Source of the DNA: a virus
DNA: 64,000 nucleotides
Virus record (IMG/VR): IMGVR_UViG_3300042197_001803
Span: 31,858 to 95,857 of that record
Direction: 5' to 3' (one strand)
Below, piece by piece: positions 6,741 through 37,908 of this stretch. A model generated the notes under the pieces. That model saw nothing but the letters and a program-made list of their open reading frames with translations. It was not told the DNA's origin and did not search any database. Positions within the stretch are counted from its first letter, which is position 1; each line of letters opens with the position of its first letter. The translations under genes were made by a program, and so were the position numbers.

Positions 6741-6802
6741 TATTATATAAAATAAATATTATGTTTGATTTACAAATAAACAAATATTGGTAATATTTAT
6801 TG

Positions 6803-7393
6803 ATGATGGAATCAGGTATTTACATTATCAAAAACATAACTAACAACAAAATATATGTTGGTAGTTCTGTTAATATTTCGTCACGAGAATATAAACATTT
6901 TTGGATGTTAAAAACAGGTATTCACGATAATCATTATTTACAACAATCATATGACAAATATGGTAGGGATTCGTTTATTTTTGAAGTTGCCGAATTGTGC
7001 AGTTATGATGACTTAATAATTAAAGAAAATCACTATATTGATTTGTACCAATCAAATAACCCAAAATACGGATATAATCTAGCTAAAGTTAATGAATTCA
7101 GAAGAAACACATATAATGACGAGGTTAAATTAAAATTATCGACTTATAATCAAAATAAAAATAACAACTTTAAACAATTTTCATTAACAAATATTGAATC
7201 AGGTAATATATTTATATTTGACAATTTAATTGAGGGTGCGAGATACTTAATTAACAACGGTTTTGCCAAAGGTATCGAAAGAAATATTAGGATGAAATTA
7301 TCAGCTTCATTACGCAATAAAAAAGTTAACAACGGTCATAAGGGTACCATAAGAAAAACTTGTTATAAACATAAATTCAATATAATAAACTAA
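6803..7393 (+). CDS. GIY-YIG homing endonuclease
   Basis: About 196 residues. The N-terminal nuclease domain has GIYIIKNITNNKIYVGSS (the GIY and YVG strands), a conserved Arg in SSREYKHF, and the catalytic Glu in IIKENHYIDLYQ with N-P-x-YGYNLA behind it. The C-terminal third (IRMKLSASLRNKKVNNGHKG) looks like a NUMOD-type DNA-binding repeat. This is the standard build of free-standing phage homing endonucleases. It is on the plus strand among minus-strand genes, which fits a mobile insertion. Tandem ATG codons at 6803 and 6806 both fit; the upstream AATATTTATT is the same leader seen at the other homing cassettes. Confidence 0.9.
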   Translation: MMESGIYIIKNITNNKIYVGSSVNISSREYKHFWMLKTGIHDNHYLQQSYDKYGRDSFIFEVAELCSYDDLIIKENHYIDLYQSNNPKYGYNLAKVNEFRRNTYNDEVKLKLSTYNQNKNNNFKQFSLTNIESGNIFIFDNLIEGARYLINNGFAKGIERNIRMKLSASLRNKKVNNGHKGTIRKTCYKHKFNIIN

Positions 7394-15210: not shown

Positions 15211-15894
15211 TTATTTTTTTCTATATTTTTGTTTATTTTTTATTGTTTCAATTACTTCGTCAAATATAAGTCTTTTTCTTTGAAGAAAAAAGTTTGAGTC
15301 AAAATAAAATCCGTAATATATATTTTCAATGTCTTTCATTCCTGACCATCCAATAAATTTATATTCTTTATTTTTTGGTCCGTATAATTTGTTAATGTTT
15401 GTACCAAACAATAAATTCATTCTTTCATTAATGTTGTTTAACATATCCAAAGACCCTCCAACAATTTTTAAATCACCTCTTTGTGAACCATCTCTTTTAT
15501 CGGTATTAATTCTTATACATCCATCACCATCAAAATAACCTCTTAAAAAATGTCTTTCAAATTTTTCATTGATTTGAGGATATTTTACAGAAAATGTTTT
15601 ATTTTGTAATACACCCAATTTTTCTAAATCATTAATTATTTTTTTTCCAGACATAAAAACTTCACAAGTTTCTCTTTTTTTGTTTTTCCAAACATTCATT
15701 TCACCGTCAATGGATTTAATAAATTTCTCTAAGATACCAACATCTTTACTATGTAATTTTAAAGTTAATTGATATCGGTGTTTTTTTGGGTCGTTGGTTA
15801 CGCACCCATCCGCAAATATAAATCCCAAAAAGTAAGCTTTTTCTTCACTGTCTATAGTTTCAAAATAATTTTCATTATATATTTTTTTTCTCAT
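15211..15894 (-). CDS. LAGLIDADG homing endonuclease
   Basis: A 227-residue protein with two motif helices: SEEKAYFLGFIFADGCVTND at residues about 16-35 and HFLRGYFDGDGCIRINTDK at about 115-132, each ending in the D/G catalytic acid. Between and after them are beta strands (YQLTLKLHSKDVGILEKFIK). This is a monomeric LAGLIDADG nuclease of the intein/free-standing kind. The stop codon is just before the Dam start, and the ATG lies 20 bases inside a ribbon-helix-helix gene. The pair mirrors the cassette at 33004-33697. Confidence 0.9.
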   Translation of the reverse strand: MRKKIYNENYFETIDSEEKAYFLGFIFADGCVTNDPKKHRYQLTLKLHSKDVGILEKFIKSIDGEMNVWKNKKRETCEVFMSGKKIINDLEKLGVLQNKTFSVKYPQINEKFERHFLRGYFDGDGCIRINTDKRDGSQRGDLKIVGGSLDMLNNINERMNLLFGTNINKLYGPKNKEYKFIGWSGMKDIENIYYGFYFDSNFFLQRKRLIFDEVIETIKNKQKYRKK

Positions 15895-16030
15895 AATACT
15901 CTTTAACTAAATTTTGAATAAACTTAGAGATACTAATTTCCTCAGTTTTCATTTTATCAAATAGATGTCGGTCAATACTAATTCCGTATTTAACTTTTTT
16001 ATCTTTGTTTTCTTTCTTTGGTCGTCCCAT
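15875..16030 (-). CDS. Ribbon-helix-helix protein, cassette 1
   Basis: A 51-residue protein starting MGRPKKENKDKKVKYGISID and continuing RHLFDKMKTEEISISKFIQN. The pattern is a short beta ribbon (KYGISI) followed by two helices with S-x-S-K-F-I-Q-N-L, as in Arc/MetJ/CopG repressors. Such proteins usually bind DNA as dimers and regulate their own operon. It ends 20 bases inside the LAGLIDADG gene. A paralogue with the same start and overlap precedes the HNH gene at 33004, so the two genes probably travel together. Confidence 0.72.
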   Translation of the reverse strand: MGRPKKENKDKKVKYGISIDRHLFDKMKTEEISISKFIQNLVKEYYEKKNI

Positions 16031-16150
16031 ATATAATAAATATCACAAAATATATTAAAAGTGCGTTAAAAAACAAATAAATTAAGAATTATTTTTATTG
16101 TTTTACTTTATTGATTGTTTTTTCTATTTTTAAAATAAATTAATATTGAT

Positions 16151-24503: not shown

Positions 24504-25289
24504 TTATTTTACATAACTTAATCTCTTAATCCCATCATCTGTAGTGGTGGTTGTTGTGGTATCGACAGTATGTCCATTTTCATCATACATTTCACCAATT
24601 TCATTCACATAATATTTAACAGGTACCTCAACTATTTTTTCAACTTCCTTGATGACTTCAATTGGTTTTTCAACTTCTTTAATAACTTCAACAGGAACCT
24701 CGACTATTTTTTCAACTTCTTTAATAACTTCAACAGGAACCTCGACTATTTTTTCAACTTCTTTAATAACTTCAACAGGAACCTCGACTATTTTTTCAAC
24801 TTCTTTAACTTCAATGTTATTTTCATTATTGTCTTTATATTTTATAAAGAAATGTAAAGAAGTTAATGATATGATAGGTAGTAAACCTCCTTCTAAAAAT
24901 GCCAACCATCTTTTTAATGAAATAATATCACCTACATCTGAACCTAAACTTTCCCACACAGGTAATGTTAACTCAACCCAAGCTTTGAATAACTCACCAT
25001 TAGCGTCTATTTCTTTATAGGAGTAAAAGATATTACCTATCATTTGAATAAATGTGACTAATCCAAACATAAACCAAACCCCACCTTTTATTTTATTAGT
25101 GGCGGCAACCAAAGCGGTCATAGCCCCAACCTCAATAGCGATAGATAAGTATATGGCCCAGTTAATTGGGTTTGCGATATCATACCACGAAACTACGTGT
25201 GATATTGAAATACCCGCAACGAGAACAATAGGGACTAAAAACATAGCCCTATTAGGATTATTTTTTATCCACTCAATAATTCTCTTCAT
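24504..25289 (-). CDS. Polytopic membrane protein with VEVPVEVIKEVEK repeats
   Basis: A 261-residue protein. Residues 15-32, 40-60, 70-90 and about 125-148 are hydrophobic helices (for example FLVPIVLVAGISISHVV and GGVWFMFGLVTFIQMIGNIF). From residue about 160 to 225 the protein is a tandem repeat of a 14-residue unit, VEVIKEVEKIVEVP, with one shortened copy, and it ends in a Thr-rich tail (VDTTTTTTTDDGIKRL). The hydrophobic part fits a holin-like role next to the amidase. The charged repeat should form a long stiff helix or beta-like rod in the cytoplasm or periplasm. No family is recognised. Confidence 0.7.
   Translation of the reverse strand: MKRIIEWIKNNPNRAMFLVPIVLVAGISISHVVSWYDIANPINWAIYLSIAIEVGAMTALVAATNKIKGGVWFMFGLVTFIQMIGNIFYSYKEIDANGELFKAWVELTLPVWESLGSDVGDIISLKRWLAFLEGGLLPIISLTSLHFFIKYKDNNENNIEVKEVEKIVEVPVEVIKEVEKIVEVPVEVIKEVEKIVEVPVEVIKEVEKPIEVIKEVEKIVEVPVKYYVNEIGEMYDENGHTVDTTTTTTTDDGIKRLSYVK
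24619..24808 (-). repeat. 42-bp tandem repeat inside membrane protein gene
   Basis: Almost identical 42-bp units (coding for the 14-residue unit VEVIKEVEKIVEVP) repeat about four times, with one unit shortened by 12 bases. Near-identity at DNA level shows that it expanded recently, and that copy number could vary between isolates. Confidence 0.85.
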
Positions 25290-29859: not shown

Positions 29860-30215
29860 TATAAGTGTTTATTTGGTCTGTTTTCCTCAAACCACTCAAT
29901 AATACCATTAAATGCCCAAACAAAACCTGACGCTAACATACCATCAAAAAACCAAGAAAAGGCGGGATGTATGTTGAACAGTGAGTTGGCTGGTGAATAA
30001 AATGCTATTGATAAGAAAAATCCTACCCATGTTGAGGTACACATCATACAACTTAATAGGTCTGAAATAAACATCCCTACTTGATTGAATGGTGAGTACG
30101 GGTTAGTACCCCATTTACGTAAAAAGTCTCTAAACCCATTAAAAATTGAGCCATAGACTAAAATGTTTGATTGTCCATACGCAATCAATAACCAAATTAA
30201 AATTAGTGTTATCAT
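29859..30215 (-). CDS. Membrane protein, DUF1360-like
   Basis: A 118-residue protein with three hydrophobic segments. The central SDLLSCMMCTSTWVGFFLSI, with its Cys-x-x-Cys before a Trp-Gly helix, resembles the C-x-x-C-x-x-x-W-x-G core of DUF1360 proteins of bacteria and phages. The charged end (WFEENRPNKHL) would be cytoplasmic. A role in the phage-infected envelope is likely, but the family link is by pattern only. Confidence 0.55.
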   Translation of the reverse strand: MITLILIWLLIAYGQSNILVYGSIFNGFRDFLRKWGTNPYSPFNQVGMFISDLLSCMMCTSTWVGFFLSIAFYSPANSLFNIHPAFSWFFDGMLASGFVWAFNGIIEWFEENRPNKHL

Positions 30216-30928
30216 AAATTTTCTATTATATTTGAACCTTTCATATAAACCGCACCTGTTTGACTATTATTTGTCATCGAGTTTTTTAGTTTATCCTCAA
30301 GTTCGTTTATTTTTTCATTTTTTAATTTTAAGTCTTTTCTTAAATTCTGTAAAGTAGTCTCCAACATTTTAACTTTGTTTTCGTCTATAGGAATGTCTAA
30401 ATTACGTCTAAGTTCATCTAATTCCATGTCCTTTTTAGACATTTCATTTTGGAAAATATTTTCCATTTCGGTTATTTTAGTGGAAAATATTTGTACCTCT
30501 TTTTGAGATTCTTCGAGTTTAATGGAAAATTCTTGTTTTTCTTTTACCAACTGTTCTATTTTTTCAAACAGTTCGTTTTCAGTATTTTTGTCGGAAATAT
30601 ATTCTATTTTTGAGACAATTTTTTCAACAGGAACCTCCTTAATAACTTCTTTTTCAATAATTATTTCTTTAATAACCTCAATAGGAATTTCCTTAATAAT
30701 TTCAACCTCTTTTATCACTTCAACAGGTATTTCCACCCGTTTTTCACGGATTACCTCAATTTCCACTTGTTTTTCATCTTCTCCACCCGTTTTTCCCAAC
30801 AATCCATACTTTTTAATATCAAATCCCTGTTTAAAACAATCCTGAATAAATTTATTAATATCTGTTATACCATTCAGCATACAGAATTCATAAATTTCCT
30901 TATTGTTTTTTATTTCAACAGAATACAT
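30212..30928 (-). CDS. Coiled-coil protein with IPVEVIKE repeats
   Basis: A 238-residue protein. Residues 1-48 form a small globular part (NGITDINKFIQDCFKQGFDI). Residues about 55-105 are a degenerate repeat of the type VEIPVEVIKEVEIIKEIPIE, related to that of the membrane protein at 24504. From about 110 to 225 it is a long coiled coil (KIEQLVKEKQEFSIKLEESQ onward) that ends in TNNSQTGAVYMKGSNIIENL. It lies between gp47 and the membrane gene at 29859. It may be a scaffold or tether; no family is recognised. Confidence 0.65.
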   Translation of the reverse strand: MYSVEIKNNKEIYEFCMLNGITDINKFIQDCFKQGFDIKKYGLLGKTGGEDEKQVEIEVIREKRVEIPVEVIKEVEIIKEIPIEVIKEIIIEKEVIKEVPVEKIVSKIEYISDKNTENELFEKIEQLVKEKQEFSIKLEESQKEVQIFSTKITEMENIFQNEMSKKDMELDELRRNLDIPIDENKVKMLETTLQNLRKDLKLKNEKINELEDKLKNSMTNNSQTGAVYMKGSNIIENL

Positions 30929-32138: not shown

Positions 32139-33002
32139 TTATAGTTTATTAGTCAAATAGTTCCCCATCTTCATATTTAATACCGTTGTTATAACATCTT
32201 TAGGTACTCTAAACTCTTCATATTCACTATTTTCCTTTAATAAAACAACAATACAACCATAAACTTTCAAGTTTTCAAATTCAGTTCCTTTTAACATTTC
32301 AACCAATAACTTTCCGTAGAATGGTAATTGTGTGTAGTAGTGCCCCAAAGCATTGTCAGGTAAATTATGAAATGGTGGTTTCATTTTTTTGGTAAACTGG
32401 TTAACTTCGAAGTTTTTGGGTTTATTTGTTTTATAGTCAGTAATTAGAAACCCATAACCATTTTTTTCTTTATTTTCAATTAACCAACAATCATCACCTT
32501 GACCAGTATATCCCAATTCAGGGTGCCCCAAAACGATTTCAGTGTCTAATAAAACAGCATTTCGTTGTTTCATAAGTTCCAAAAAATTAGAACCCGCAGT
32601 TACCATAGAATCACTTTTTAATATTTGTGTAAAATCACAATCAAATTCAGGTTGTCTAACTTCTTTAATTAAACCAAATAACTCAATTGATTTTTTTTCT
32701 AATAAATAATGAGTTCTTGAACCCATATTAGTTGAGTATGTTCCAGCATCAGACCATTCTTTCAATAATCTTTCCTTTTCTTTAATATCACCTTTAGCCT
32801 TTTTTTCCGCTATTTCATCAGCAGGAAACTCATCATAAAACAATTTCATAATTTTAGATACCGAAGACCAATCATCCCTGATTTTACCATATTTATCCAT
32901 CATAGTGTATTTATGGAATTTTTCTTCAAATGTAAGATGAAATTCTTTTCTTTTTTCATCCAAAACATGTCTGATTTGATTTGCTATTTTATTTAAATTC
33001 AT
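32139..33002 (-). CDS. PD-(D/E)XK family nuclease
   Basis: The start chosen is the ATG at 33002 (MNLNKIANQIRHVLDEKRKE, 287 residues), because the longer frame from 33035 would lie inside the HNH gene. Catalytic elements: helix with SRTHYLLEKKSIELFG, DTEIVLGHPELGYTGQGDDC with the Asp, and YGFLITDYKTNKPK, the D-x-K strand; a YYTQLPFYGKLL helix follows. This is the build of Cas4/RecB-like and phage-exonuclease nucleases. With gp46/47 and primase nearby, a role in DNA end processing or recombination is likely. Confidence 0.82.
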   Translation of the reverse strand: MNLNKIANQIRHVLDEKRKEFHLTFEEKFHKYTMMDKYGKIRDDWSSVSKIMKLFYDEFPADEIAEKKAKGDIKEKERLLKEWSDAGTYSTNMGSRTHYLLEKKSIELFGLIKEVRQPEFDCDFTQILKSDSMVTAGSNFLELMKQRNAVLLDTEIVLGHPELGYTGQGDDCWLIENKEKNGYGFLITDYKTNKPKNFEVNQFTKKMKPPFHNLPDNALGHYYTQLPFYGKLLVEMLKGTEFENLKVYGCIVVLLKENSEYEEFRVPKDVITTVLNMKMGNYLTNKL

Positions 33003-33003
33003 A

Positions 33004-33555
33004 TTATTTTTTTCCTTTTTTATAATTTTCATCACACCATAATGGTTGGAGATTTGTATAATGACAAAGTGTATAAACTTCTTCCTCTGTTTTTGCCGAA
33101 GCTAGTGGTATTATATGGTCTATATGCCACCCTGTGTGTTTATAATTGTCCCAAGACATACCTTCGGTAAATCGTTCTTCAAGATAAATTTTTAATTCTT
33201 TTGGAGAACAACCCACAATATTAAAAGTGTTATTTGTTTTTATATCAAAATTAACACTTTTAATAAAATGTTTAACTCTGTTTCTAATATTAACTTTTAA
33301 CTTATACAAAGTGTCATTATCATAATTGTTTTGATGTCGATTGTTTCTACTTTTTTTAACCGATTGATTATTGTTTTTTTGATAGTTAACCTGTCTTAAT
33401 ATTTCATTTTCTCTATTCTTATAATAAAAATTTTTATACTCTATCGATGTACATTCTCTACATCGATATCTTAAACCATCAGGTGTGTACTTATCTTTAT
33501 TATATTCACAAAGTAATTTTTCAACACCACATTTTTTACAAATTTTTGTGTCCAT
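33004..33555 (-). CDS. HNH homing endonuclease
   Basis: 183 residues from the ATG at 33555 (MDTKICKKCGVEKLL); a GTG at 33561 is less likely. The N-terminus has a zinc-binding pair KICKKCGVEK and YRCRECTSIEY. The HNH core is GWHIDHIIPLASAKTEEEV followed by CHYTNLQPLWCDENYKKGKK, with the usual His, Asn and His/Lys residues. It has the build of a free-standing homing nuclease. It sits directly before the PD-(D/E)XK gene and overlaps the ribbon-helix-helix gene upstream by exactly 20 bases, as in cassette 1. Confidence 0.88.
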   Translation of the reverse strand: MDTKICKKCGVEKLLCEYNKDKYTPDGLRYRCRECTSIEYKNFYYKNRENEILRQVNYQKNNNQSVKKSRNNRHQNNYDNDTLYKLKVNIRNRVKHFIKSVNFDIKTNNTFNIVGCSPKELKIYLEERFTEGMSWDNYKHTGWHIDHIIPLASAKTEEEVYTLCHYTNLQPLWCDENYKKGKK

Positions 33556-33697
33556 TTTCACGATAATCTTTTAATAATTTATTTACTAAAGATGACAAAT
33601 TAATATGAAGATTCCTATAATAATTTAAAAGCTCAGGTTCTAATGCAACAGATACTTTAGTTTTTTTTTCTTCTTCTTTTTTCTTAATTCGTCCCAT
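33536..33697 (-). CDS. Ribbon-helix-helix protein, cassette 2
   Basis: A 53-residue protein, MGRIKKKEEEKKTKVSVALE then PELLNYYRNLHINLSSLVNK and a basic tail. The strand KVSVAL and the two helices match ribbon-helix-helix repressors. The MGR-x-KK start, size and position are the same as in the protein at 15875, although the bodies have diverged. It probably controls the cassette or helps the nuclease bind. The leader TATATTTATTTAATATG is like that of cassette 1. Confidence 0.72.
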   Translation of the reverse strand: MGRIKKKEEEKKTKVSVALEPELLNYYRNLHINLSSLVNKLLKDYRENGHKNL

Positions 33698-33740
33698 ATT
33701 AAATAAATATATTAAAAAGTGTGATTATTGTCAATTTTAT

Positions 33741-34085
33741 TTAAATCCATTTAATTATTTTTAATTCTTTATTTAATTTATTAGATAAATCAATGGAACT
33801 TTTAGTTCCTTTTGAAACTCCATCCCAAAACGCGAAAACAATATCAGAGTTTTCAATTATATCTTTATTTCTTCTAAATCCTGCCGATTTTCCGTACTTG
33901 TCCCATTCTGGGTAAAAAATTAAAACTTCTTTGTTTTTTTCTTTAGCCCATCTTTCACCTAAAGTATCAGCTCCTTTAGCACCTCCACTAACAATTAGTG
34001 TTATTGTGTTTTCATATTCTAAAAGAGTTTCAAGAACTAAATCATAGTTATTAAAACTTCTACTACCAATTATAGCTGCTTTCAT
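33741..34085 (-). CDS. SLOG-family protein (YspA/DUF2493-like)
   Basis: A 114-residue Rossmann-like protein with MKAAIIGSRSFNNYD, VSGGAKGADTLGERWAKEK, YPEWDKYGKSAGFRRNKDII and VFAFWDGVSKGTKSSIDL. These match the short SLOG proteins (YspA/DUF2493) that bind nucleotides or nucleotide-derived ligands. Phages carry them often; the suggested roles are sensing or cleaving NAD- or cADPR-like signals, perhaps against host defence, which is inference. It lies between primase and the HNH cassette. Confidence 0.88.
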   Translation of the reverse strand: MKAAIIGSRSFNNYDLVLETLLEYENTITLIVSGGAKGADTLGERWAKEKNKEVLIFYPEWDKYGKSAGFRRNKDIIENSDIVFAFWDGVSKGTKSSIDLSNKLNKELKIIKWI

Positions 34086-34086
34086 A

Positions 34087-34992
34087 TTAAAATTTCATTT
34101 CGTAATAATATTCTTTAATATCACCTTTTAAATCACAAACATCCTTATCTATAGGTAGCTTAACAATTTTAACCTTACCATAAAGTTCACCACCACTTAT
34201 TTCTTCATATAACCTTACAGCATCACCCCAAGCATCACCATCAAGACAAATTGTTATATTACCCTTAGCTTTATTATATAATGAATTAAAAAGTAGTTCA
34301 CTCATATGTTTACCCAGCATGGGAATACTGTTTTCCAAAAAAAATCCATCAAACACACCTTCAACCAAATATATATCTTTATCCCAATCTATTAAATTTT
34401 CATTGAAAATTATTTTATCTTTTTCAGCTTGTGGGTTTTTATATTTTGCTTTAGTGTTTGGGTCCCAGCTTCTTGCTATATAATAATTTAATTCACCTTT
34501 TGTATTATATGATGGTACAACTACTCTACCTTTGTGTGAACCTCTATCACAAAAACCAATTTGATATTTTTCAATCATATAATCGGTAATTCCACGATTA
34601 TATAAGTAATTTATTGCCTGTCTTCTTACAGGGTAAATCTTACTCGAATCTTTGAATAGAGTGAATGACTCAGGTAATTTTAATTTTGGTAGTTTTTTTT
34701 CAGTAGGCTTATCGTTTTCAGGTTGTAAAATTTTATAAACTTTTTTTTGTTTTTTATTACCAAACTTATCAAAAAATTTATTTAGAGAACCTTTTGTGTT
34801 ATTAACATCACCACAACTCCAACATTTAAAGACGTGATTATGGTAGTTAATTTCTAAATTACCTTTGTCTCTATCTTCATCACAGACGGGGCAGTTAAAG
34901 GCAACCTGACCTTTGGACTCGTAGTGTTGCTTCTCGTCCCCAAGAATTTCTCTCAGTAATTCTAAAAGTATTTCTTTATCATCAGTCATCAT
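34087..34992 (-). CDS. DNA primase (CHC2 zinc finger, TOPRIM)
   Basis: A 301-residue DnaG-like primase. The zinc finger is FNCPVCDEDRDKG with FKCWSCGDVNNTKG at about residues 27-65; the RNA polymerase core starts near 115 (YLYNRGITDYMIEKYQIGFC, then GRVVVPSYNTKGELNYYIAR); the TOPRIM domain has DIYLVEGVFDGFFLEN and ITICLDGDAWGDA near 205-255 with the catalytic Glu and Asp pair. It is short, like T4 gp61 (342), without the DnaB-binding domain. It would make primers for lagging-strand synthesis. Confidence 0.92.
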   Translation of the reverse strand: MMTDDKEILLELLREILGDEKQHYESKGQVAFNCPVCDEDRDKGNLEINYHNHVFKCWSCGDVNNTKGSLNKFFDKFGNKKQKKVYKILQPENDKPTEKKLPKLKLPESFTLFKDSSKIYPVRRQAINYLYNRGITDYMIEKYQIGFCDRGSHKGRVVVPSYNTKGELNYYIARSWDPNTKAKYKNPQAEKDKIIFNENLIDWDKDIYLVEGVFDGFFLENSIPMLGKHMSELLFNSLYNKAKGNITICLDGDAWGDAVRLYEEISGGELYGKVKIVKLPIDKDVCDLKGDIKEYYYEMKF

Positions 34993-35077: not shown

Positions 35078-35293
35078 ATGCCAATTGACATAACAATAAA
35101 CAATATTTCAGGAGCTTCACCATACGATGTTTATCTTTGTGATAACCCAGTTAGTGTTTGTGTTTATATAGACACAGTTTCATCACTACCTTATGTTTTT
35201 CAAGTTCCGTCTCTTATGTCAAATGATAACGATTTTAATTTAAAAATTGTAGATAATAATGGGTGCACTACCTATCAATATTTAAGTATCTAA
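35078..35293 (+). CDS. Small SprB-like tail-associated protein
   Basis: A 71-residue protein, [20 protein letters not shown] then [20 protein letters not shown] and a final [18 protein letters not shown]. The order of G-x-x-PY-x-V, a beta-rich core and V-D-x-x-GC is like a shortened SprB-type repeat unit. It is coupled to the fibre gene by TAATG at 35291-35295, so both are made together. It may be a chaperone or tip subunit of the fibre. Confidence 0.6.
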
Positions 35294-37908
35294 TGCAGGT
35301 AACAACAATCATAAGAATAATCTCTTGTACTGACTTAACAGTATACTATGCGTATTATAGTGACCCGTTGATACTGTTACCAGGTAAAATCTATAATTTT
35401 AGTTTTACAATGGGTTCAACAATCCCTGATGGATGTTACACTTACGTACAAGATGAAATGCCTGGAGTACCTATAACAGGAACTGTATTATCAGTTAATG
35501 GTGGTCCTTACGCAAATTGTGAGGAATGTTTTATTGCACCTCCAACCCCAAGTCAAACACCAACTCCAACAGTAACTCCAACTAATACTGTAACACCTAC
35601 TAGTACTCCAACTCCAACAGTAACTCCAACTAATACTGTAACACCTACTAGTACTCCAACTAATACTGTAACACCTACTAGTACTCCAACTCCAACAGTA
35701 ACTCCAACTAATACTGTAACACCTACCAACACTCCAACACCCACACCAACACCATGCGGTTGCGAATGTATGACAATTGATTCAACATTATCATTTTTCG
35801 CCACAGGTAATACTAGTAATCCAAATAATGTAGCATATTACGAATATTATGATTGTAATAGTAATTTAGTCACTATTGTAGACAATAATATAGGGTATTT
35901 TAATATATGTGTTAGTAATTGCAATTTAGTTAAAGCGTATTTTTGGAGATTAGACGTTTATTACGAATCCACCTCTTTCCCATGGAATCCATTTACAGGT
36001 CCTGGTATAAATGCTGTTTGTAATGGAACCCCATGTTGTAATCAAAGTGATTGTGGTGCACCACCACCAACTTTACCTCCAACACCCACACCAACGACAA
36101 CACCTACACCAACCATAACATCTACACCAACACCAACGGTTACTCCTACGGTTACCCAAACGGTTACCCCAACAAAAACGCCCACTCAAACACCGACAGT
36201 AACTCCAACCATAACACCAACCTCAACTGTCACTCCAACAGTTACACCTACCGTAACACCAACAAGAACCCCAACTAATACCCCTTCAATAACACCAACA
36301 AACACACCAACAAAAACTGTAACACCTACTGTTACTCCAACAACAACACCAACACCAACACCAACACCTGTTGGTTGTTTTGAAAATTATTGTATAACGG
36401 GGACTGGTGATTCAGGTATTGACGACAATTATACTAGTGGTGGAACATATAATGGAGCTTTGTATTGGGTTGGTAGTGTAAATGGGTTATACATTTATTA
36501 TGATACAACTAATAGTCAATGGTGTTTATCAGCATCTTTAGGTGGTTCATGTATTTTATCAGGTAAATCACCTTGTGTTTCAACATGTCCTGATTTATGT
36601 CAAGATTATTTTTTCATAGGTATTTGTCCAACTCCAACTCCAACACCAACATTACCTTGTGATGTTAATTTTGAAGTGTTGTTTGATTGTGAATTTACAC
36701 CGACCCCTTCAATTAGCCAAACACCTACAGTTACACCAACAGTTACCGTAACCCCAACACCTTCAAATGTTTGTTCAGTTATTGGTGTCGACGCAACAAT
36801 TAATTCATATACACCAACTCCAAGCCCAACACCTAGTTTGACACCATCAAACACGCCAGCGGTTGTTAGACCTTGTAATTTTACAGGTAATGTTAGTTTT
36901 AATAATGTTAATGAAATTATTAGATGTCCATTTAGTAAACAATTCCAAGATTGTTTTAATGGTGAAATGTATTTTACAACAAATGAAATTAATAACCCAG
37001 GTGGTGGAAGTGTTGAACAATTTATGGTTTTTGAAGCTTTGGTTGATGGGTCATCAAGATGTGTTTCCTATATAGGAGATAATCAAGACACAATAGGTAT
37101 AAATCAAGTAGAGCTAAGGTATGGTCCTTTTGGATATTCTAATTTGGGCGACTGTATTAATTGTAGTCAGTTTGAAAGTCCAACCCCTACACCAACTTCA
37201 ACGGTAACCCCAACACCAACATTAACTCCAACACCAAGTAACACGCCAGTGGAAAACGCTTATTATGTTTATGTAAGATGTGACGATGAAAGAAAATATG
37301 TTGTTCAGACATCACCAGGTCCAACAACAAATATTAACACATCATTTATAAGTTTAGTCGATAATAAATGTTGGAAATTCTTGTATGTTTCATCAGGGTT
37401 CCCATCTATTAATCCTCTATATGATGTAATTAATTACACAGGTAATTATTTCACGCAAACAACTAACCAATCATTTAAAACTTGTGAATTATGTAATGCG
37501 GCTTTAATCGCGTCCACAACCACAACAACTTCAACGACTACACTATCACAACAAAATTATATAATAAACTATAGTGTTACAAAAACTGTGGATTGTTCTA
37601 CAACAATTGGTAGAATATTGGTAAATGGAGTTATTAAATACAGTATTACAACAGGATTAGCACCTGGTAATTATTCAGGTAATTTTACAGTAAAAGACAA
37701 TGATGTTGTTATTTTTGATTTCTCAACTATAGCACCGTCGCCATCATGTACAGGATTAATTCCTACTATATCAATATCGGACACTAAAGGAATAGTTAAT
37801 GAGTATGCAGAATACGGATTACCTAATCAAACAATATATGAAACATTTGTTGTAGATTATAATTGGATTGGTAATACAATACAAATATTGTCCAGTACCA
37901 CCACATAA
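35293..37908 (+). CDS. Fibre-like protein with Thr/Pro linkers and Cys domains
   Basis: The ATG at 35293 ([14 protein letters not shown], 871 residues) is preferred because it overlaps the preceding stop in a TAATG. Six or so small Cys-containing domains of 60-110 residues alternate with Thr/Pro runs such as [20 protein letters not shown] (from about residue 85), [20 protein letters not shown] (about 260) and shorter ones. The domains often end in C-x-x-C ([28 protein letters not shown]). A Thr-rich run ([11 protein letters not shown]) comes near the end. It has no signal peptide. It is most likely a tail fibre or virion-surface adhesin. Confidence 0.75.
35541..35755 (+). repeat. Thr/Pro linker repeats, first block
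   Basis: Tandem near-identical units such as ACTCCAACTAATACTGTAAC and CCTACTAGTACTCCAACT encode [13 protein letters not shown]. The high DNA identity shows recent expansion. Antisense reading frames of Gly-Val repeats seen here are a by-product. Confidence 0.85.
36062..36372 (+). repeat. Thr/Pro linker repeats, second block
   Basis: A longer, more degenerate block of CCAACA/ACTCCT-type units that encode about 100 residues of TPT, TVT, TNT and TKT steps. It separates two Cys-containing domains of the fibre protein. Confidence 0.8.

Follow-up and report, generated by a model that had tools for sequence, protein, structure and literature searches.

A portable ribbon-helix-helix head on phage homing endonuclease genes encodes a putative autorepressor

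Here we analyze a window of 64,000 nucleotides from an uncultured phage, the IMG/VR virus record IMGVR_UViG_3300042197_001803 (the entire record has 95,857 bases), and focus on a two-gene cassette in which the gene of a small ribbon-helix-helix (RHH) protein precedes and overlaps the gene of a zinc-finger HNH nuclease. We will argue that the RHH protein is probably a transcriptional autorepressor of a homing cassette. Read from sequence, the case is built on the cassette itself, an insertion site that is empty in relatives, a fixed frame between the two genes, purifying selection on the RHH gene, an operator-like site that tracks the RHH type, and the exchange of heads between nucleases. DNA binding, repression and a pulse of nuclease are what we infer from these observations.

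The proposed mechanism starts from a portable head, which would consist of a promoter with an operator, the small repressor gene, and a nuclease start placed inside the last codons of that gene. Following entry, or at an early stage of infection, the promoter would give a two-gene mRNA from which both proteins are made, and translation of the RHH gene would perhaps bring ribosomes to the nuclease start via the overlap, a possible second role of the latter in coupling translation. Once RHH dimers occupied the operator, which overlaps the promoter, expression of the cassette would cease. The outcome would be a nuclease pulse that is enough for homing while the damage to the phage is limited.

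Results and Discussion

The window contains two such cassettes, both on the minus strand. Their features are the following (window coordinates):

33720-33733 (-): operator-like site TGACAATAATCACA of cassette 2, from leader comparison, information content, arm symmetry and tracking of RHH type
33706-33734 (-): sigma-70-like promoter TTGACA-17-TATATT, overlapping the operator-like site, with 11 of 12 consensus matches
33703-33710 (-): ATATTTAT box immediately 5' of the RHH start, common to other genes of the phage
33536-33697 (-): RHH-2, ribbon-helix-helix protein of 53 residues and putative cassette autorepressor, from its open reading frame (ORF), Pfam, IMG/VR relatives, dN/dS and an AF2 model
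33536-33555 (-): overlap of the RHH 3' end with the HNH start, 20 nt, frame offset 2 mod 3
33004-33555 (-): zinc-finger HNH (endonuclease VII-like) protein of 183 residues, probable free-standing homing endonuclease, from its ORF, motifs and phrog_1035
16057-16067 (-): AACGCACTTTT, conserved core of the cassette-1 leader, operator-like, near 2 bits per position in 30 leaders
15875-16030 (-): RHH-1 of cassette 1, 51 residues
15211-15894 (-): LAGLIDADG homing endonuclease of cassette 1, 227 residues (Pfam LAGLIDADG_3, 5.3e-9)

An RHH plus HNH cassette with a 20-nt overlap, built in the same way as the RHH plus LAGLIDADG pair, had been described in the original prediction, and the ORFs bear this out (33536-33697/33004-33555 and 15875-16030/15211-15894, the second pair overlapping by 20 nt at 15875-15894). 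RHH-2, which begins with MGR, matches the Pfam family CcdA (PF07362) above the cut-off (26.1 vs 22.4 bits) and is thus an RHH protein by sequence. RHH-1 scores 14.0 bits, below the cut-off, and its membership comes via homology to RHH-2 (31% identity, E 1.8e-5 in a search of the virus's own record); no third copy was found in the 95,857 bases of that record. The AF2 monomer model of RHH-2 has an extended segment followed by helices at 21-29 and 34-48, with moderate confidence (pLDDT 80, pTM 0.45). A sequence search of the PDB with the RHH protein returned just de novo repeat proteins and CcdA at E of about 1.

The HNH protein carries CxxC...CxxC and HIDHIIPL motifs. Its ATG is at 33555 and its stop at 33004, with an alternative in-frame GTG six nucleotides upstream of the ATG. 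PHROGs classifies it as endonuclease VII/HNH-like (phrog_1035, 4.8e-18), Pfam PF01844 scores below the cut-off, and the LAGLIDADG protein is an endonuclease in PHROGs (3.3e-45). Since RHH-1 and RHH-2 are homologous and the nucleases are unrelated, the same kind of leader gene heads two unrelated nucleases.

Recurrence of the module

Scans of IMG/VR gave 279 confirmed relatives with RHH-2, 47 with RHH-1 and 321 with a profile, and the combined scans contain 151 unique pairs of RHH and downstream gene. The concern that there might be no other example of the overlap is overturned by this number. The downstream gene encodes an HNH protein with zinc finger in 89 of the 151, a LAGLIDADG protein in 29 and a PD-(D/E)XK-like protein in 6 (one of the latter with NUMOD3 and weak TnsA-like/phage endonuclease I matches); the remainder are zinc-finger-only or truncated, HNH-only, or other genes. 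The frame of the overlap is conserved with all three kinds of nuclease, in line with the predicted module across unrelated partners. An "exact" overlap of 20 nt, on the other hand, holds for both window cassettes and is the most frequent value, but it is not invariant: unique cassettes with a measurable nuclease overlap have 11, 14, 17, 20, 23, 26 or 47 nt, always 2 mod 3. Exceptions to this offset are decayed or rearranged loci, such as L059 (loci are named by our L numbers), where the nuclease is gone and the RHH gene meets the gene at the insertion site with an overlap of 4 nt.

Because selection by RHH would bias the sample, a scan with the HNH family was also made. Here, an RHH gene lies upstream in 61 of 80 loci, and in 60 of these it overlaps with an offset of 2 mod 3; the sole other one, L290, has a frameshifted RHH gene. 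The RHH gene is under strong purifying selection, with a dN/dS of 0.07 over 38 independent pairs (0.135 in the RHH-1 group), while the nucleases have 0.16 and 0.11. The module is thus real, recurrent and beyond chance. Outside IMG/VR, no RHH relative was found at E<0.01 in 50,697 annotated phage records, and the RHH-2 profile gave 354 pattern matches, none confirmed, in 84,980 bacterial and archaeal genomes. A divergent RHH group with IRLSITV or IRVSITI (the second RHH of L037; L129) was seen at the head of HNH cassettes just upstream of the primase gene.

The CcdA match above the cut-off raises the option of a toxin-antitoxin pair, in which the RHH protein would bind and neutralize the nuclease. 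A small DNA-binding gene that lies ahead of, and overlaps, the gene of a potentially harmful enzyme would fit this option, as would the loci in which RHH is retained and the nuclease is broken or lost (L053, L059, L094, L102). However, 19 of the 80 related HNH genes have no RHH gene, which argues against an obligate antitoxin, and related heads serve HNH, LAGLIDADG and PD-(D/E)XK-like proteins, which is unlikely for an antitoxin acting by specific protein-protein contacts. Toxin binding by CcdA resides in its C-terminal part, whereas the 53 residues of RHH-2 leave almost no tail past the DNA-binding fold: of the 71 profile positions the match takes up 1-34, and 8 residues remain after it. We consider an antitoxin role improbable.

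The leader and its operator-like site

We now consider the DNA upstream of the RHH gene. Across insertion sites the leader has a common order 5' of the RHH ATG, namely the operator-like site, ACTTTT, a variable spacer, ATATTTAT and the ATG. The operator-like site differs by RHH group: TGTGAATATTCACA goes with KVSVAL and TGTTAAAAATAACA with QSISIAL, at a similar position before A[CT]TTT, TGTTTAAAATAACA goes with KSISVAM strands, and AACGCAC with the RHH-1 group. In cassette 2 the right half, TCACA, is conserved. As a free search for palindromes in these AT-rich leaders gave many chance palindromes, symmetry was tested at a fixed position with shifted controls; for group A the arms match at 3.36 of 5 positions at the fixed place, compared to 0.9-2.6 at 18 shifted places. 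No inverted repeat was found in the AACGCACTTTT core of cassette 1.

A further comparison is between RHH type and insertion site. Over its 15 nt, the operator has an identity of 0.69 when the RHH group is the same and the site differs, and of 0.53 when the site is the same and the group differs; in the adjacent 8-nt spacer, used as control, the two values are just 0.52 and 0.48. None of 300 within-site permutations reached the observed operator contrast. The operator tracks the RHH type rather than the insertion site.

A search for further TGTGA N3-5 TCACA sites found none elsewhere in the window, and there is thus no sign of a wider regulon there. The ATATTTAT box stands shortly upstream of several gene starts (63517-, 52151-, 44556+, 41174-, 35050+, 21279-, 14341- and 1469-) and may be a phage promoter or a general start element, although the window contains about as many copies of it as expected (22 vs 18.9).

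Another option considered is that the overlap acts in translation only, so that nuclease synthesis depends on translation of the RHH gene and the RHH protein has no regulatory role here. The overlap is 11-29 nt in nearly all cassettes with constant relative frame, and Shine-Dalgarno-like motifs precede the nuclease start in just 22 of 145 cassettes, both of which would suit this option. The fixed frame may, however, be merely inherited, because other indels would disrupt one gene or the other. Further, the RHH protein is itself conserved (the dN/dS of 0.07 given above), the operator tracks its type, and the RNA around the overlap has no structure beyond chance (z -0.55), hence nothing to suggest a hidden start. 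The translational control that the original prediction tentatively put forward is therefore not upheld as the principal link between the genes, the operator tracking being the stronger signal, and we assign it a low probability as the sole function.

The constant frame could also point to a programmed frameshift at the overlap that yields an RHH-nuclease fusion. This candidate was rejected, and we regard it as extremely improbable: in 136 of 145 cassettes the nuclease frame is closed by a stop no more than 10 codons ahead of the ATG, this ATG is present in nearly all cassettes, and nucleases without a head use the same ATG.

Exchange of heads

Comparisons of closely related loci indicate that the operator-RHH head is exchanged between nucleases as a unit. 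L060 and L067 share 92-98% identity across the upstream gene, the nuclease and the downstream DNA, while their operator/promoter regions are 71% identical and their RHH genes 71% (62% in protein). Similarly, the HNH genes of the window and L026 are 83-89% identical, and their RHH groups differ. In L220 and L232, the RHH proteins are identical and the catalytic ends 97% identical around a DNA-binding middle with just 29% identity. From these three pairs, the operator with its RHH gene, the DNA-binding middle and the catalytic end appear to be separate exchangeable units. The same combination of identical RHH and near-identical catalytic ends around very different HNH middles is seen among L220, L230 and L232, as specificity swapping inside the nuclease.

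Heads and nucleases also occur apart. An intact RHH gene with a lost or broken nuclease is found in L053, L059, L063, L089, L094 and L102, and in four headless HNH genes (L292, L294, L307 and L346) the ATG lies a few nucleotides past the RecA stop, which looks like loss of the entire operator-RHH head or its absence from the outset. Downstream of the RHH gene, L063 and L066 have a nuclease stub fused to a C5 methyltransferase, and the latter apparently holds an intein.

These exchanges bear on the option that the RHH protein is a targeting subunit, which would bind near the homing site and guide the nuclease. It is a DNA-binding fold from the same operon, and homing endonucleases often carry extra DNA-binding modules. 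Yet the RHH type changes while nuclease and insertion site stay (L060/L067, L026/window), the same RHH group is found at different sites, and it is the leader of the cassette itself that contains the conserved site. We find such a role very unlikely.

Autorepression, in turn, has several points against it. The left arm of the cassette-2 operator is degenerate (TGACA vs TGTGA of the relatives), both full palindrome arms are present in just 12 of 39 group-A leaders, and the leaders of groups C and F contain no clear inverted repeat. The promoter calls are consensus-based, and shuffled sequence yields similar numbers of sites. As the operator adjoins the RHH gene, its tracking could partly reflect linkage, although the control spacer gives a much weaker contrast. 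Foldseek gave no match with the RHH-2 model, and with a monomer of moderate confidence the DNA-contact residues are not assignable. Finally, about a quarter of the related HNH genes do without an RHH gene. We nevertheless regard transcriptional autorepression as the probable function.

Insertion sites and the nature of the nuclease

Cassette 2 lies between the following two genes:

32139-33002 (-): PD-(D/E)XK exonuclease-like gene (phrog_298, 1.2e-15), which flanks the insertion site on the downstream side, its ATG almost directly after the HNH stop
34087-34992 (-): DNA primase, the other flank, which abuts the PD-(D/E)XK gene in empty relatives (phrog_47, 6e-44)

The window additionally has a YspA-like gene (33741-34085) between the primase and the cassette. 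Of 80 relatives of the PD-(D/E)XK gene, 78 have enough flank to be read, and in 70 of these the primase directly abuts it with no insert. The closest relative, L128, has RHH-HNH exactly between the two genes, and seven further relatives have other inserts at this place. The place next to the PD-(D/E)XK gene, which had been suggested to be near the target, is thus an insertion site with many empty relatives.

Other cassettes are found downstream of a RecA-like gene, either before a 5'-3' exonuclease (RecA/FEN, 54 unique) or before a C5 methyltransferase gene (11), between DnaJ and Dam (18, including cassette 1), after SbcD (11), between genes of an SNF2-like helicase and a superoxide dismutase-like protein (6), and before primase (2); gene names beyond the family-searched ones were assigned by reading the sequences. 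Insertions of this kind, between neighbours that adjoin each other in relatives, are the pattern known from free-standing homing endonucleases, and the nuclease is in all likelihood one of these. We hold this identity more firmly than the autorepression; the HNH protein would cleave the empty site.

A GIY-YIG homing endonuclease gene at 6800-7393 (+) has no RHH head and carries a ATATTTAT box just before its start.

A possible further case and other features

Among 15 HNH/LAGLIDADG neighbourhoods in annotated phage records, one has a comparable overlapping small ORF. It belongs to a 642-kb uncultured phage (LR756502, L215), where the ORF at 1365-1514 overlaps a zinc-finger HNH gene by 17 nt, 2 mod 3. 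In an IMG/VR contig (L373), the ORF at 1501-1641 overlaps such a gene by 14 nt, also 2 mod 3. The two small proteins (46-49 residues) are different from the window RHH proteins and unrelated by BLAST; they have no RHH match in Pfam, their RHH likeness being by eye only. L215 and L373 are a possible further case of an overlapping head. In L215, a palindrome, TTATCCATAATATATATATTATGGATAA, spans the start codon of the small ORF.

The window also encodes a long PTPTxTPT-repeat protein (35263-37908, +) and two proteins with repeated EVIKEVEKIVEVPV-type segments (24504-25289 and 30212-30928, both -).

Relation to known systems

Several known systems share parts of this arrangement. The C proteins of type II restriction-modification are encoded by a small autoregulatory DNA-binding gene upstream of the endonuclease gene, with the operator in their own promoter, and some C genes overlap the endonuclease gene. 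They are, however, helix-turn-helix proteins in systems with a protecting methylase, whereas the present cassettes combine an RHH protein with a homing nuclease and contain no methylase gene. The CcdA antitoxins and the CopG and Arc autorepressors resemble our protein in being RHH family by sequence, and operon autoregulation is typical of them. Unlike CcdAB, the cassettes have no CcdB-family partner gene (the partners are HNH, LAGLIDADG or PD-(D/E)XK-like) and no C-terminal toxin-binding part. Free-standing phage homing endonucleases such as Seg, Mob, MobE and F-CphI are likewise HNH or other nuclease genes between conserved genes and absent from relatives, but the present cassettes come with a leader of their own and a small gene dedicated to regulation.

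The closest comparison in terms of regulation is I-TevI, which represses its own late promoter, the endonuclease occluding it by binding to an operator (PMC2988022). The likeness would be that of a phage homing endonuclease with a promoter blocked by a protein of the element itself, which for our cassettes is a prediction; the candidate for such an operator is the operator-like site, which tracks the RHH type and in the window overlaps the consensus-based TTGACA-17-TATATT match. In I-TevI the endonuclease is itself the repressor and its gene lies in a group I intron, while in the free-standing cassettes the repressor would be encoded separately and have another fold, the RHH protein being a better candidate for it than the nuclease. 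Seven free-standing endonucleases appear promoterless (PMC2988022), and a paper on domain shuffling of homing endonuclease genes mentions repressors, in the passages retrieved, just for I-TevI and CapR (PMC10448857). We found no description of an RHH plus homing endonuclease cassette in the open-access literature, as judged by title and abstract opening, subscription journals being mostly uncovered. The kind of nuclease is known; the shared operator-RHH head is apparently what is new and undescribed.

Conclusion

Little is understood of how free-standing phage homing endonucleases are controlled, and several of those described seem to borrow promoters. If autorepression holds, a dedicated repressor on a portable head that serves three nuclease superfamilies would give these elements a further, new level of regulation. 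More tentatively, the operator-RHH heads might form an immunity system among selfish cutters, in which a resident RHH protein, even a solitary one whose nuclease has decayed, would silence an incoming cassette with the same operator, and pressure to escape would drive the exchange and diversification of heads, as in the immunity regions of lambdoid phages; we think this rather unlikely. With such small genes in laboratory strains, controlled homing and competition between cutters would become directly testable, and the matched operator-RHH pairs would provide a natural series for studying how RHH specificity evolves.
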